The position numbers and the translations under genes were made by a program. Positions 6,103-57,879 of a stretch of DNA of 64,000 nt are shown here, one piece after another. The stretch lies in assembly GCF_009708005.2 (NCBI RefSeq), contig NZ_CP052757.1:1860001-1924000 (forward strand). The letters are read 5' to 3'. The notes beneath the pieces were generated by a model that saw only the letters and a program-made list of their open reading frames with translations, ran no database searches and was not told the DNA's origin. Positions within the stretch are counted from its first letter, which is position 1, and every line of letters begins with the position of its first letter. The DNA is from Cellulosimicrobium protaetiae. Its GTDB lineage: Bacteria > Actinomycetota > Actinomycetes > Actinomycetales > Cellulomonadaceae.

Positions 6103-6174
6103 GCGAGGGAGAACCCTGGTCCGACCACGGTTCTCCTCCGGCGGAGCCGGGTTCTCCCTCGGCAGAGCGGGGTC
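6103..6174. repeat. Inverted array of 21-bp-pitch repeat, locus 1
   Basis: One forward unit at 6103-6121 (GCGAGGGAGAACCCTGGTC) is followed by inverted units at 6123-6141 and 6144-6162 (GAGCCGGGTTCTCCCTCGG), then a partial unit GAGCGGGGTC at 6165-6174. Inverted units keep a 21-bp pitch. The array fills the gap between the DUF58 stop and the start region of the 40-aa gene. The same family occurs at 18445-18690. Confidence 0.8.
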
Positions 6175-7465
6175 AAAGGCGGCCTGCCGCCTTGAGGGCG
6201 AGGTAGGTGTCGGCGAGGCGGGGGGCGAGGTCGTCGGGGAGGGCGTCGACGACCTCGACACCACGACGGCGCAGCACGGTCGTCACGGCGGCGCGCTCGA
6301 TCTCCCCGCGTGCGGCCGCGGCGGCGTCGTAGATCTCCGCGGTGCCCGACCGGTCGTCGCGCAGGGCGACGACCTCGGGGTCGGCCGCCGCGGCGAGGAC
6401 GACCTGGTGCTTCGCCGTGAGCTGCCCGACGACGGGCAGCAGCCCGGTCTCGACGGCGGCGGCGTCCAGCGTCGACAGGAGCACGACGAGCGCGCGCTGC
6501 GACAGACGCTCGTGCACCGCGCCGACCAGCCCGGGCCAGTCGGTCTCCAGGAGCGCGGGCTCGAGCGGCGCGAGCGCGTCCGCCATCGCAGGCATGAGGC
6601 GCGGGCCGGCCGCGCCGGCGACGCGCGAGCGCACGGTGCGGTCGTAGGCGATGAGCTCGACGCGGTCGCCCGCGCGCCCGGCGAGCGCGGCGAGCAGCAG
6701 CGCGGCCTCGATGCTCGCGTCGAGGCGCGGCTCGTCGCCGACGCGCGTCGCGGACGTCCGGGACGTGTCGACGACGACGAGCACGCGCCGATCGCGCTCG
6801 GGCCGCCACGTGCGCACGACCATGTCCCGCCCGCGGGCGGACGCGCGCCAGTCGATCGAGCGGACGTCGTCGCCGAGGACGTACTCGCGCAGCGAGTCGA
6901 ACTCGGTGCCCTCGCCGCGCACCTGGACCGCTGCGCGGCCGTCCATCTCCCGCAGGCGCGCGAGGCGGCTCGGGAGGTGGCGGCGGGACGCGAACTCGGG
7001 GAGCACGCGCAGGCGTCCGGGCACGGGGATCGACGCCTGGCGCGCGGCGAGCCGCAGCGGGCCGAAGGACCGGATCGTGACCCGGTCGGCCACGCGCTCG
7101 CCGCGCCGCGTGGGGACGAGCGCCGTGGTCACGCGCGCGGCCTCGCCGGGCGGGAGGTCGACCGGGTGCCGGTTGACCTGAGTCCCGGCCGACGGCGGCC
7201 ACGCGTCGCGCACGAGCGCGCGCAGCCGCCGCGACGCGAGGTTGGTGAGCGTGAGGCGCGAGGTCGTCGTGTCCGTGAGGCGGACCGACCCCGGGACCCG
7301 GCGCTCGACCGCGACCCGGCGCGGGGACGCCGCGAGGGCCACGTCGAGCGCGCACAGCGCGACGACGAGCAGCGTCCACACGAGCACCGTCCCCGGCACG
7401 GGGAACAGGAGCACGGGGACGACACCGAGCGCCGTCAGCACGACGGCGCGCCACGTCAGGGCCAC
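6173..7465 (-). CDS. DUF58 domain protein (MoxR-associated)
   Basis: A 430-residue protein. Two membrane helices span about 8-48. A beta-rich region follows, then the DUF58 core at about 187-215: G-T-E-F-D-S-L-R-E-Y-V-L-G-D-D-V-R-S-I-D-W. Next is a von Willebrand A-like strand V-L-V-V-V-D-T-S-R-T-S (MIDAS-like D-x-S). The start lies 10 bases after the MoxR stop, so the two are co-translated in practice. MoxR ATPases with DUF58 partners are thought to act as chaperone/metal-insertion pairs, but the client here is not known. The stop codon overlaps the last unit of the 21-bp-pitch repeat array. Confidence 0.9.
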   Translation of the reverse strand: MALTWRAVVLTALGVVPVLLFPVPGTVLVWTLLVVALCALDVALAASPRRVAVERRVPGSVRLTDTTTSRLTLTNLASRRLRALVRDAWPPSAGTQVNRHPVDLPPGEAARVTTALVPTRRGERVADRVTIRSFGPLRLAARQASIPVPGRLRVLPEFASRRHLPSRLARLREMDGRAAVQVRGEGTEFDSLREYVLGDDVRSIDWRASARGRDMVVRTWRPERDRRVLVVVDTSRTSATRVGDEPRLDASIEAALLLAALAGRAGDRVELIAYDRTVRSRVAGAAGPRLMPAMADALAPLEPALLETDWPGLVGAVHERLSQRALVVLLSTLDAAAVETGLLPVVGQLTAKHQVVLAAAADPEVVALRDDRSGTAEIYDAAAAARGEIERAAVTTVLRRRGVEVVDALPDDLAPRLADTYLALKAAGRL

Positions 7466-17716: not shown

Positions 17717-18370
17717 ATGGAGATCGTCGTCGTCGGCAGGCACACGGAAGTGGCAGACCGCTTCCGCCGACACGTGGAGGACAAGCTCGCCAAGGTCCAG
17801 CAGCTCGCGCCCACGGCGCAGCGCGTGGACGTCGAGGTCACCCACGAGAACAACCCGAGGCTCTCCGGGGTCCGCGAACGCGTCGAGCTCACCGTGCGGG
17901 CCAAGGGCCCCGTCGTCCGCGCCGAGGCAGCGGCCGACGACCGGTTCGGCGCGCTCGACCTCGCGATGGACAAGCTCGCCGAGCGCCTGCGTCGCGCCCG
18001 CGACCGTCGCAAGGACCACCGCAACCACACCGTCGTGCCGCCCGTCGACGTGCGTCCCTACGACCCGTCCACGCACGACGCACCCCCGCCGCCGACGCCG
18101 ACCGCGCCGACCGAGCCGGGGGAGGCCGTCGAGACGACCCTCGGTGACTCGCCCGTCGTCATCCGGCAGAAGCTGCACACCGCCGAGCCCATGACCGTGG
18201 ACGACGCTCTGTACGAGATGGAGATGGTCGGTCACGACTTCTTCCTCTTCGTCGACGTCGAGACGTCGCGCCCGTCCGTCGCCTACCGGCGCCGCGGGTG
18301 GACGTACGGGGTCGTCGCGCTCGACACGTCCTGCGACTGCGCCACGCCCTCGGTCGAGAAGACCGCCTGA
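17717..18370 (+). CDS. hpf: Long-form ribosome hibernation promoting factor
   Basis: A 217-residue protein with an N-terminal S30AE/RaiA domain (about 1-100, starting [12 protein letters not shown]) and the C-terminal dimerisation domain of long HPF (about 150-217, V-V-I-R-Q-K through S-V-A-Y-R-R-R-G-W). The Pro-rich linker lies between. Long HPF drives 100S ribosome dimer formation in stationary phase. GGAGG six bases before ATG 17717 fixes the start; the open frame further upstream overlaps comF. A strong terminator follows at 18379. Confidence 0.95.
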
Positions 18371-18378
18371 CCTCACCC

Positions 18379-18413
18379 GACGCGCCCGGACCCTCGACGG
18401 GTCCGGGCGCGTC
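18379..18413 (+). terminator. Terminator after hpf
   Basis: A perfect 15-bp stem (GACGCGCCCGGACCC and its complement) with a five-base loop, nine bases after the hpf stop. No T-run follows, as is usual at this GC content. Confidence 0.8.
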
Positions 18414-18444: not shown

Positions 18445-18690
18445 CCGAGGCAGCACCGCAGCCCACCGAGGTAGAACCGTGGTTGGCCGGGGTAGAACCG
18501 TGGTTCATGTGTACGTCGGACCGTACGAGCGGCTCGGTGCAGCGAGGCAGGTCCGGCACCACCACCCAGCGCGACCACCCGAGCGAGCCACACGCCGTCG
18601 GGCACGGTGACCAGGGCTCTACCTCGGGCAACCAGAGTTCTACCTCGGGCAACCAGGGTTCTACCTCGGCGGAGCGGGGTCGTGCCTCGG
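18445..18690. repeat. Inverted arrays of 21-bp-pitch repeat, locus 2
   Basis: Forward units start at 18445, 18466 and 18487; the best copy is CCGAGGTAGAACCGTGGTT. Inverted units start at 18609, 18630, 18651 and, degenerate, 18672; the best is AACCAGGGTTCTACCTCGG. Every unit is 19 bp plus a 2-bp spacer, an exact 21-bp pitch. The two arrays face each other across about 103 bp of unrelated sequence. Confidence 0.9.
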
Positions 18691-18753: not shown

Positions 18754-19998
18754 ATGTCCCTGTCCCAGGCGCGCCGTGTCGCTCTCGCCGCGCAAGGGCT
18801 GCACCGCCCGCGCCCGGACGTCGGGACCGGCGGCACGCCCGGTCGGCGCACGCCGACGATGCGGCAGGTCCAGGGCGTGATCGACCGGCTCGGGCTGCTG
18901 CAGATCGACTCGGTGAACGTGCTCGCGCGGGCGCACCTCATGCCGCTGTACGCGCGCCTCGGCCCGTACGACACGGCGCTGCTGGACCGCGCGGCGGGAC
19001 GCGCCCCGCGCCGGCTGGTGGAGACGTGGGCGCACGTCGCGTCGTACGTCCCGCCGAGCACGTGGCCGCTGCTCGAGTGGCGACGCCGCCGGTACCGGAC
19101 GGAGGCGTGGGGCACGATCAGCGCGGTCGAGATGAGCCACAGCGACGCCGTGGAGGACGTGCGGCGCCTGGTCACCGAGCGCGGGCCGATCACGGCGAGC
19201 GAGGTGCACGAGATCCTCGAGGCGGAGGGGCGTGCGCACCCCAGGGACCGGTCGCAGTGGGGCTGGAACTGGACCGTCGCCAAGCAGGCGCTCGAGTTCC
19301 TCTTCTTCACGGGCGAGATCACGTCGGCGCGTCGCAACGGGGCGTTCGAGCGCTGCTACGACCTGACGGAGCGCGTGCTCCCGCCCGAGGTGGTGGCGGC
19401 CCCGCCCGTCGCGGACGCCGACGCCGTCCGGGCTCTCCTGGAGATCGGCGCGCGGGCGCACGGCGTCGGCACGCTGCGCTGCTTCAAGGACTACTTCCGG
19501 CTCAAGGGCCCGGCGGTGCGCACGGCGCTCGACGAGCTCGTCGAGGCGGGGACGCTGCGGCCGGTGACGGTGCGGGGCTGGGACGAGCCCACCTACCTGC
19601 ACGCCGACGCGACGCTCCCTCGCCGGGCGACCGCGACGACGCTGCTGAACCCGTTCGACCCGCTCGTGTTCGAGCGCACGCGGCTGGAGCGGCTGTTCGA
19701 CGTGCACTACCGGATCGAGATCTACGTGCCGGCAGCGAAGCGGGTGCACGGCTACTACGTCCTGCCGTTCCTCGAGGGCGAGGACCTCACGGCGCGCGTC
19801 GACCTCAAGGCGGACCGGCGCGCGGGTGTCCTGCGCGCCCTGTCGGCGCACCGCGAGCAGGCGGCGGGGGAGCAGACGGCGGCGCGGCTCGCGGCGGAGC
19901 TCCGGGTGCTCGGGGGGTGGCTGGGCGTGCCCGAGGTCGAGGTGGCACCCTCGGGCGACCTGGCCCCGGCACTGGCGGCCGAGGTGGCTGTCGCCTGA
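18754..19998 (+). CDS. YcaQ/AlkX-like winged-helix DNA glycosylase family protein
   Basis: A 414-residue protein beginning [16 protein letters not shown]. The motif [16 protein letters not shown] (about residue 45-60) is the diagnostic Q-I-D region of the YcaQ/AlkX branch of HTH_42 DNA glycosylases, which unhook interstrand cross-links or remove alkylated bases. Later marks are E-T-W-A-H-V-A-S-Y and [16 protein letters not shown] 18754 starts at the conserved N-terminus; GTG 18724, with AGGA seven bases before it, is a real alternative adding ten residues. The gene stands alone behind the repeat array and before secA. Confidence 0.85.
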
Positions 19999-24020: not shown

Positions 24021-25061
24021 TCAGGCGGACGGTGCGGCGAGCACCTGGCCGGGACGGATGAGGTCCGGGTCGTCGCCGACGACGTCGGCGTTCGCCACGT
24101 ACCAGCGCTGCACCGCCGTGGCCACGTCGGCGTCGGCAGAGCCCGGGGGCAGTTGCCGCGCCGCGATGGACCACAGCGAGTCCCCGCGCAGGACGACGAC
24201 CTCGCGGGGCACGCCGTCGGTGTCGTCGACGGCAGCGCGGGAGACCGACAACGCCGCGTCGCGCGACGCGGTCGGCTCTACCGACAGGGCGACGTCGCCC
24301 GACGCGGACGCCGAGCCGAGGCCGGTCCGCCCGGCGTCGTCCGCCGAGGTCGGGGACGGTGCAGCGGGTGCAGCGGGTGCAGCGGGTGCAGCGGGTGCAG
24401 CGGACGCGGCGGTGGGCACGTGGGCAGGTGCCTGCGCGGGGGGCGCCTCGGAGGTGGCCCCTGGGGATGGCGAGGTGGCGGTGTCGTCCCCCGGGGCAGG
24501 GGTCGCCGGAGCTTCCTCGTGCGTCCGGGGCGGCGTCGGGGCGGTGGCCGTGCCGTCGGCCGGGGCGCCGGTCGTGGCCGGGGCCGGCGCGTGGTCGGCT
24601 CCCGGGGCGTCGTCCGGCGTGAGGGCCGAGCTCTGCCACCCGAGATCGACGGCCACGACAGGTTCCGCGTCCGGCGCCGGTGCGGCGTGCGCGGTGCCCG
24701 CGCCGAGGACGAGGCCCGCACCGACCGTGAGCCCGACCCCGACCCGGGCGGCCCGGCGGACCACGGCCGGGGCCGCCCGAACGACGAGGCGCTCGCCGGC
24801 ACCCCAGGACCGCCCCAGCGAGCGCGCGGCGACGCACGCGAGACCCAGCAGGGCGCTGCCGCCGACCCACGCCGCGGTCGACGCCCCCACGGCGAGGGCG
24901 AGGAGCTCGAGGTAGGGCTCCGCGCGACCGGTGGTCAGGGACGTGGCGACCTGGATGCCGCGCAGCGCGAGCACCGTGACGGCGGCGCTCATGGTGACGA
25001 GCAGGACGAGGAGGACGGCGAGCCCCCCGGCTCGTCCGGGTACGGCGGTGCGACGCTTCAT
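24021..25061 (-). CDS. LysM-domain membrane protein
   Basis: A 346-residue protein. Two N-terminal membrane helices (about 11-35 and 50-75) and a third near 108-125 anchor it. A long Ala/Pro/Thr-rich linker (about 130-265) follows, then a C-terminal LysM domain (about 285-345) with V-V-L-R-G-D-S-L-W-S-I-A-A-R-Q-L and L-I-R-P-G-Q-V-L. LysM binds peptidoglycan, so the linker likely spans the periplasm-like space. AGGGGG precedes the ATG. A palindrome and three TTGATG direct repeats lie in its upstream region. Confidence 0.85.
   Translation of the reverse strand: MKRRTAVPGRAGGLAVLLVLLVTMSAAVTVLALRGIQVATSLTTGRAEPYLELLALAVGASTAAWVGGSALLGLACVAARSLGRSWGAGERLVVRAAPAVVRRAARVGVGLTVGAGLVLGAGTAHAAPAPDAEPVVAVDLGWQSSALTPDDAPGADHAPAPATTGAPADGTATAPTPPRTHEEAPATPAPGDDTATSPSPGATSEAPPAQAPAHVPTAASAAPAAPAAPAAPAAPSPTSADDAGRTGLGSASASGDVALSVEPTASRDAALSVSRAAVDDTDGVPREVVVLRGDSLWSIAARQLPPGSADADVATAVQRWYVANADVVGDDPDLIRPGQVLAAPSA
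24361..24405 (-). repeat. 9-bp tandem repeat in the LysM gene linker
   Basis: Four perfect and one degenerate copies of GCAGCGGGT, encoding an A-A-P triplet repeat in frame. The array can lengthen or shorten the cell-wall-spanning linker without a frameshift. Confidence 0.85.
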
Positions 25062-56719: not shown

Positions 56720-57879
56720 TGGCTCACCGGGAGGCACACCACCAGATGGCACACCACCAGATGGCACACCACCAGATGGCACACCAGTGGCAGGGCATCA
56801 TCGCCGAGTACCGTGACCGGCTGCCCGAGCACGTGTCCGAGCGGATCGTCACGCTCGGCGAGGGCGGCACGCCGCTCGTCGAGGCCCCGGCGCTCTCCGC
56901 GCGCACGGGCGCGCAGGTCTTCGTCAAGGTCGAGGGCATGAACCCCACGGGGTCGTTCAAGGACCGCGGCATGACGGCGGCCATCTCCGCCGCAGCGGGC
57001 CGCGGCGCGCGGGCGGTCGTGTGCGCGTCGACGGGCAACACGTCGGCGTCGGCGGCCGCGTACGCGGTGCGCGCCGGGATGACCTGCGCCGTGCTCGTCC
57101 CGGACGGCAAGATCGCGATGGGCAAGCTCAGCCAGGCGATCGCGCACGGCGCGCGCCTGCTCCAGGTCGACGGCAACTTCGACGACTGCCTCGTCGCCGC
57201 GCGCAAGCTCGCCGACTCCTACCCGGTCGAGCTCGTCAACTCGGTGAACCCCGACCGCATCGAGGGTCAGAAGACCGGCGCGTTCGAGATCGTCGACGCG
57301 CTCGGCGACGCGCCCGACATCCACGCGCTGCCCGTCGGCAACGCGGGGAACATCACCGCGTACTGGAAGGGCTTCCGGGAGTACGCCGGCCAGGGCGCCC
57401 CCGGCCACGCGGGCGAGGGCCTGCCGGCCGTCGCGACGCACGTGCCGCAGATGTGGGGCTTCCAGGCGGCGGGCGCCGCACCGATCGTCGCCGGGCACCC
57501 GATCACCGAGCCGGAGACGATCGCGACCGCGATCCGCATCGGCAACCCCGCCTCGTGGGAGCTCGCCGAGACGGCGCGCGACGACTCGGGCGGCGTCATC
57601 GAGTCCGTCACGGACGAGCAGATCCTCGCCGCGCACCGGATCCTGTCGAGCGAGGTCGGCGTGTTCGTCGAGCCCGCATCGGCGGCCGGCGTCGCCGGGA
57701 TCCTGTCGCGCGCCGAGCGCGGGCTCGTGCCCGCGGGCTCGCGCATCGTCGTCACGGTCACGGGCCACGGGCTCAAGGACCCGCAGTGGGCGCTGCGCAC
57801 GCTCGACGGCAGCGAGGTGACGCCGACGCGCGTGAGCGCCGACGTCGTGTCCATCGCCGACGCCCTCGGGCTCGACTGA
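56719..57879 (+). CDS. thrC: Threonine synthase with repeat-expanded N-terminus
   Basis: A 386-residue PLP enzyme. PLP lysine in [10 protein letters not shown] near 80; S-T-G-N-T-S-A-S near 103; P-V-G-N-A-G-N-I near 210. The N-terminus carries M-A-H-H-Q repeats encoded by a 15-bp tandem array, so in-frame ATGs occur at 56719, 56746, 56761 and 56776. The last (M-A-H-Q-W-Q-G-I) matches the usual family start, but the ribosome site (GGAG) lies before 56719, which I chose. Coupled to hom by TGATG and to thrB by TGATG. Confidence 0.95.
56731..56790 (+). repeat. 15-bp tandem repeat at the thrC start
   Basis: Four units on a 15-bp pitch: 56731 (GAGGCACACCACCAG), 56746 and 56761 (both ATGGCACACCACCAG), and 56776 (degenerate, ATGGCACACCAGTGG). 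Each of the last three brings an in-frame ATG. Confidence 0.95.

Follow-up and report, generated by a model that had tools for sequence, protein, structure and literature searches.

To our knowledge, decades of work on REP-like repeats have not led to agreement on what they do. Eukaryotic foldback transposons carry inverted arrays of tandem subrepeats around a variable centre, and the DUS of Neisseriaceae are short single sites. By the account in PMC3630211, DUS variants are conserved within species and are present in thousands of copies. REP and BIME sequences, as PMC3733652 describes them, are found chiefly where neighboring genes converge or run in the same direction and are often no more than 20 bp from a 3' end, and REP repeats are described as targets of IS110-family elements (PMC1525189, PMC11208160). 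Here we report that arrays of a 21-bp repeat in Cellulosimicrobium are a genus-specific, REP-like gene-end repeat family with an unusual build, made of tandem 21-bp units and mostly of two arrays that point outward. Among the papers listed in a limited literature search (Cellulosimicrobium repeats and IS110, and actinobacterial REP), none concerned this repeat.

Facing arrays between hpf and an AlkZ/YcaQ-like gene

The window, a stretch of 64,000 nucleotides from Cellulosimicrobium protaetiae, contains a left array with units starting at 18445, 18466 and 18487 in the CCGAGGTAGAACCSTGGT sense and a right array with units starting at 18610, 18631, 18652 and 18673 in the ACCASGGTTCTACCTCGG sense, both with a pitch of exactly 21 bp. 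On the left (minus strand), the innermost unit (18487..18504) has two mismatches to the family consensus and its neighbor (18466..18483) has one; the outermost (18445..18462) is degenerate, keeping the 21-bp register with the adjacent unit and not being recovered at ≤5 mismatches. On the right (plus strand), the two inner units (18610..18627 and 18631..18648) have one mismatch each, the third (18652..18669) is the exact consensus, and the outermost (18673..18690) is degenerate, with 5 mismatches of 18. A two-unit pattern allowing ≤3 mismatches matched the window three times, always within 18445-18690, against 0.00 matches expected from 100 shuffles. The initial annotation of this DNA, made from the sequence alone, had described facing arrays of three and four units on an exact 21-bp pitch, and these are confirmed and were never reproduced in shuffled windows; the gap between them, given there as about 103 bp, measures 105 bp.

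The neighboring genes also bear out that annotation. Upstream lies hpf, of the ribosome hibernation factor family (17717..18370, plus strand; PF02482 and PF16321 above cut-off), and downstream an AlkZ/YcaQ-like gene (18754..19998, plus strand; PF06224, E 1.3e-65). A terminator-like hairpin of hpf, read from the sequence at 18379..18413 (plus strand), is a neighbor that lies outside the array; 10 of 16 genus relatives show the same hairpin there. Within the gap, 18554..18609 (plus strand) is what is left of the inner arm on the right side of the island core, and similar sequence adjoins the arrays in many other islands; this right arm alone is kept, and the central hairpin that many of those islands contain (hairpin H) is absent. 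Pattern matching identified a second, smaller island of the family at 6103..6162, in which one left-pointing unit is followed by 3 bp and two right-pointing units; a DUF58 gene (6173-7465, minus strand) has its 3' end 10 bp from this island. The window holds two further tandem repeats, one of 15 bp (GGCACACCACCAGAT, 3.6 copies with 100% matches at 56733-56786) and one of 9 bp (GGTGCAGCG, 5.1 copies at 24358-24403).

The unit consensus for the family is ACCASGGTTCTACCTCGSSSG, in which C and G together predominate, about equally, at positions 5, 18 and 19. A unit with roughly 17 conserved bp and 3-4 positions that vary fits better than the 19 bp plus 2-bp spacer originally proposed, and the GGTAGAACC/GGTTCTACC that the units were said to keep is exact in two of the three units and one of the four, with the other units deviating. 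The exclusion of a CRISPR holds, since the conserved parts of units are 3-4 bp apart with no unique spacers of tens of bp. The description of the arrays as noncoding is correct at this locus and fails elsewhere, where the neighboring gene often takes its final codons and stop from the outermost unit.

A repeat family at gene ends

We fetched 68 stretches of the C. protaetiae genome, which yielded 107 arrays and 418 units; at least 58 islands were recognized, drawn from the matches listed (part of 182, and 100 of 285), and further places exist. Linked steps within these arrays are exactly 21 bp in 301 of 311 cases, and when same-strand steps of ≤70 bp are counted with no step limit, 21 bp accounts for 301 of 317 in C. 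protaetiae and 563 of 630 in the loci of relatives. Part of this exactness could be due to tandem duplication alone. The inner edge of an array is sharp and its outer edge decays. Among facing pairs at the loci of relatives, the commonest gap is a 4-bp centre (20 of 81, overlapping loci not removed), the remaining gaps reaching up to 826 bp with three longer; among distinct islands of C. protaetiae and relatives with a gap <30 bp, the centre is exactly 4 bp in 22 of 29. In many islands only one array is present, or the two are 100-800 bp apart. The three longest gaps in relatives (1270, 1270 and 2775 bp, the first two probably one locus) were considered as autonomous copies and rejected, the translated genes in two of them (L083 and L162) being ordinary ones by eye.

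Larger gaps often contain a conserved core with hairpin H, in which conserved loops (GTGG..GGCGGGA, GAGGAACGA and GGATGGTA) sit on stems that vary among copies yet are still paired. Of 53 distinct copies, 29 are of the non-island type and have 13 inner-stem sequences; their inner stem is fully paired in 24, has one mismatch in four and was left unscored in one, and five outer stems pair poorly without gaps. The hairpin occurs in island cores (for example L013 and L019), in isolation (L019:397-500, L205-L216) and at the hpf site of three relatives (G012, G014 and G015; L254-L256), and is present in 6 of 297 genomes of a sample of the order, C. protaetiae included. At the hpf site, G014 carries it within the loop of a stem, and G003 has the same stem without it. 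Searching Rfam with the window piece and six other stretches gave nothing at the gathering score, and one of the matches that fell below it was a weak hit to a miRNA precursor on hairpin H. A tRNA-like core was rejected after ARAGORN found none in the 14 stretches scanned (of 40).

The initial annotation took a lack of further copies in the host genome or its relatives as evidence against its reading. Further copies do exist: in the C. protaetiae genome there are 285 tandem unit pairs (≤3 mismatches), against 0 for a reversed-pattern control, and tandem pairs were found in 16 of 59 genomes searched (C. protaetiae included), namely 15 of 17 Cellulosimicrobium and 1 of 42 others, the sole genome outside the genus having a single match. 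Numbers per genome are very uneven, from 0 to 307; two genus genomes (G003 and G014) have no tandem pair and three carry only 1 to 7, which makes the arrays dispensable, though these counts come from a pattern in the T form (see below) whose sensitivity to C-type arrays is lower. Among the matches listed (80 of at least 120), all named records with the pattern are Cellulosimicrobium except one labelled Sphaerisporangium cinnabarinum ATCC 31213. The records under that label (QAPD; L070, L087 and L140) carry Cellulosimicrobium-type arrays, and the label may be wrong. Viral contigs gave 0 exact pattern matches.

Gene contexts were assigned with a codon-usage gene caller trained on the open reading frames of the window. 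Of the 58 C. protaetiae islands, 30 lie between convergent genes, 24 between tandem genes and two between divergent genes, with two unassigned. At 120 loci of relatives, intergenic gaps of ≥60 bp with arrays were convergent, tandem and divergent in 51, 55 and 4 cases, compared with 43, 167 and 121 for gaps of this size without arrays (these counts, like those of facing pairs, include overlapping loci). Arrays adjoin gene 3' ends in the sense orientation in 65 cases and in the opposite orientation in 13, and at 22 of the 65 sense-adjoining ends the stop codon falls inside a unit and is always TAG; among the other genes in these stretches, 8 of 96 use this stop. Arrays at convergent ends are natural material for testing the effects of repeats on transcription and topology. 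This convergent placement, together with a pitch that equals two helical turns, would fit loading sites for DNA gyrase between converging genes, as for BIME-2 of E. coli; the account in PMC6379681 gives the gyrase motif a 10.75-bp GC periodicity and reports gyrase sites to be over-represented in BIME-2. We nevertheless regard gyrase as a very improbable explanation, because so degenerate a motif would not account for a one-base difference between species, and the same source reports that stopping transcription does not lower the BIME-2 signal.

The facing arrays might instead act as a structure, either a DNA cruciform or an RNA hairpin serving as a two-way terminator or as a stabilizer of mRNA 3' ends. 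For the complete window island, 0 of 200 shuffles fold as well (z = -5.5), so the cruciform suggested in the initial annotation is physically possible for this copy, and both the placement at gene 3' ends and the prevalence of a centre of 4 bp, the size of a tight loop, point the same way. However, each window array alone folds no better than shuffles, many islands have only one side or are widely gapped, and hpf retains a terminator-like hairpin of its own. In islands with a gap ≤6 bp, moreover, similarity between facing units of matching index (0.655) barely exceeds that between facing units of other indices (0.616) and falls short of that between neighbors within one array (0.72). A structural role for the facing arrays is thus unlikely.

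Comparison with relatives shows that sites can be occupied or empty. At the hpf site, the window island is missing in 15 of 16 genus relatives, and G015, the one relative with an array there, has different content; the site measures 7, 10 and 38 bp in G005, G006 and G008, against about 265 bp in C. protaetiae. In six relatives (G001, G002, G009, G010, G011 and G016), the site between hpf and the YcaQ-like gene holds a different palindrome of about 80 bp (AGCAGGTGGTC...GACCACCTG type). Two further sites have an island in C. protaetiae and are empty in a relative (L193/L100 and L198/L139), and because another relative has an array at the first of these (L159), loss occurs as well as gain. Between G011 and G016, which align at 96-100%, 16 of 20 G011 stretches find a counterpart among 20 G016 stretches; this sharing is weak evidence because the stretches were picked for arrays in both. 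Unit numbers differ between these two genomes (for example 9 vs 4 and 5 vs 2).

Such observations are what one would expect of a purely selfish dispersed repeat, of a foldback or MITE-like kind, which some unspecified activity spreads and which the host tolerates at the 3' ends of genes without reading it. Array-free sites in relatives, restriction to one genus with uneven copy number, hairpin cores and other palindromes nested in islands, and a sharp inner boundary with decayed outer units all favor such a repeat, which would likewise accumulate at 3' ends and avoid promoters. Against it, no clear target-site duplication was seen at the few sites read (the hpf site, L193/L100 and L198/L139), and PF01797, the marker of the RAYT/Y1 transposase, was found in 0 of 17 genus genomes and in 5 of 14 control genomes, which rules out this transposase as the mover. 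The mobile element proposed in the initial annotation accordingly keeps its dispersal, empty sites, changes in copy number and use as an IS110 target (below), but no transposase and no target-site duplication were seen. We give a selfish repeat rather less than even odds, and a difficulty for it is a coordinated change at one position of units at shared sites, which would be unexpected for inert copies.

The position-8 variant

Position 8 is T in 93% of C. protaetiae units (n = 422). C predominates in G011, G016, JNBQ, QAPD, BJNZ and SOZH (0.78-0.93) and T in JAFGYF (0.79), and JAQSXO has a mixture of the two (C 0.61, T 0.36); when mixed JAQSXO is counted, 7 of 8 records of relatives are mostly C. 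The C. protaetiae stretches were chosen partly by a T-type pattern, and the T state was therefore rechecked with a pattern accepting T or C: 42 of 45 exact matches in C. protaetiae had T in both units, three were mixed and none had C in both, while in G011 the 32 exact matches listed comprised 30 with C in both units, two mixed and none with T in both. A variant characteristic of the species is thus present genome-wide at a defined position of the unit, JAQSXO being mixed. Comparing C. protaetiae with SOZH, G011 and BJNZ, base frequencies differed by 0.74-0.90 at position 8 and by no more than 0.31 at any other position.

The same difference is seen where units are aligned at shared sites, with orthology taken from alignments of ≥400 bp at ≥82% identity rather than established locus by locus. 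The aligned set of 293 unit columns from 84 locus pairs covers all relatives, with ≤2 mismatches allowed in the C. protaetiae unit and no filter on the relative, and its columns are not independent, one C. protaetiae unit being compared with several relatives. Position 8 differs in 203 of the 293 columns, the spacer-like positions 5 and 18 in 137 and 124, and positions 2, 3, 7, 9 and 10 in 7, 8, 13, 11 and 8, respectively. With C-type relatives alone, position 8 differs in 98 of 120 columns, or in 95 of 111 when both units are held to ≤2 mismatches, a filter that favors conservation at positions other than 8; the unfiltered counts are somewhat weaker than the filtered ones and have the same direction. 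JAFGYF and C. protaetiae both have T in 30 of 36 columns, and BJNZ retains T in 16 of 43.

Wholesale gene conversion among islands would be expected to have homogenized positions 5 and 18 as well. A general mutation at GGCTCT was not seen, as this motif outside arrays keeps C in 17 of 21 aligned cases, and three of the four T cases are array units at alignment edges. Position 13 shows an excess of C-to-T changes in C. protaetiae (21 vs 2 in the filtered set), a possible sign that the unit is subject to a mutational process. Whether through a switch or a mutational process, something seems to act on the unit sequence.

The REP-like distribution, the rigid pitch, the constrained core and this species dialect together favor a binding site for a sequence-specific factor. 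We therefore prefer the reading in which this is a gene-end repeat family whose units are recognition sites for a putative sequence-specific DNA-binding factor, and give it a probability of about 0.5. Each unit would bind the factor, copies of which would line up next to one another along a single helix face at gene ends, and the switch at position 8 would be the record of a changed preference of the factor. Such binding might, as a guess, handle the ends of converging transcription, through topology, termination or nucleoid organization. A fuller version, in which a putative genus-specific protein coats gene ends and a one-base shift in its preference between species dragged hundreds of sites along in place, is considerably more tentative. 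The initial annotation had offered a multisite protein target as one possibility, and the rigid spacing of the units, the constraint on core positions and the coordinated change at one position speak for it, although no protein was found; overall, its reading of the arrays as a protein target or a dispersed element is partly supported. The single-base change also offers a handle, since any reader that exists would be expected to differ between genomes of the T and C types, and could be fished out with units in either form.

IS110 insertion and comparison with known systems

IS110 elements are described as guided by an RNA from their upstream non-coding region and as able to target REP repeats (PMC11208160, PMC11187229, PMC1525189). 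G011 carries five copies, one of them broken, of a 1.37-kb IS110-family element (PF01548 and PF02371) at loci L263, L270, L299 and L302-L305, each inside a 21-bp unit, and the insertion point within the unit is identical in all five. The upstream non-coding region of the element holds 13 nt of the unit, a length reached or exceeded in 11 of 20,000 Markov samples, and this match may be the guide of the element; a right-hand guide was not identified in that region, where a second match is wrongly oriented. A close form of the element occurs in 1 of 17 genus genomes, and two others have distant relatives of it (39% and 30% identity), at whose fetched loci no units were found. With one point of the unit hit and a match to the unit upstream, the G011 element resembles the bridge-RNA-guided insertion of IS621 into REP and adds to the natural cases in which IS110 elements insert into chromosomal repeats. 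The element uses the arrays and does not account for them. Because the stretch it carries matches the C form, the switch to T could be an escape from guided insertion or could be tracked by it.

Three described systems share features with the 21-bp family. As in eukaryotic foldback transposons, inverted arrays of tandem subrepeats flank a variable centre; the family differs in being bacterial and in that no transposase or target-site duplication was found. Like the DUS dialects, it has species-specific variants, but it amounts to a few hundred units that stand in tandem arrays at gene ends. In distribution the family resembles REP and BIME, being likewise dispersed, multicopy, intergenic, biased to 3' ends and hit by IS110. 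Whereas REP is a short hairpin tagged with GTAG or CGTC, the unit here is a 21-bp tandem repeat, each of the two facing arrays of the window folds no better than shuffles on its own, and paired arrays point away from the centre between them; unlike GTAG-class REP, the family has no RAYT in 17 Cellulosimicrobium genomes. It also differs from REP and BIME in having a species dialect at a single position. We conclude that the 21-bp family is a new variant of REP-like repeats and that the dialect is its surprising part.
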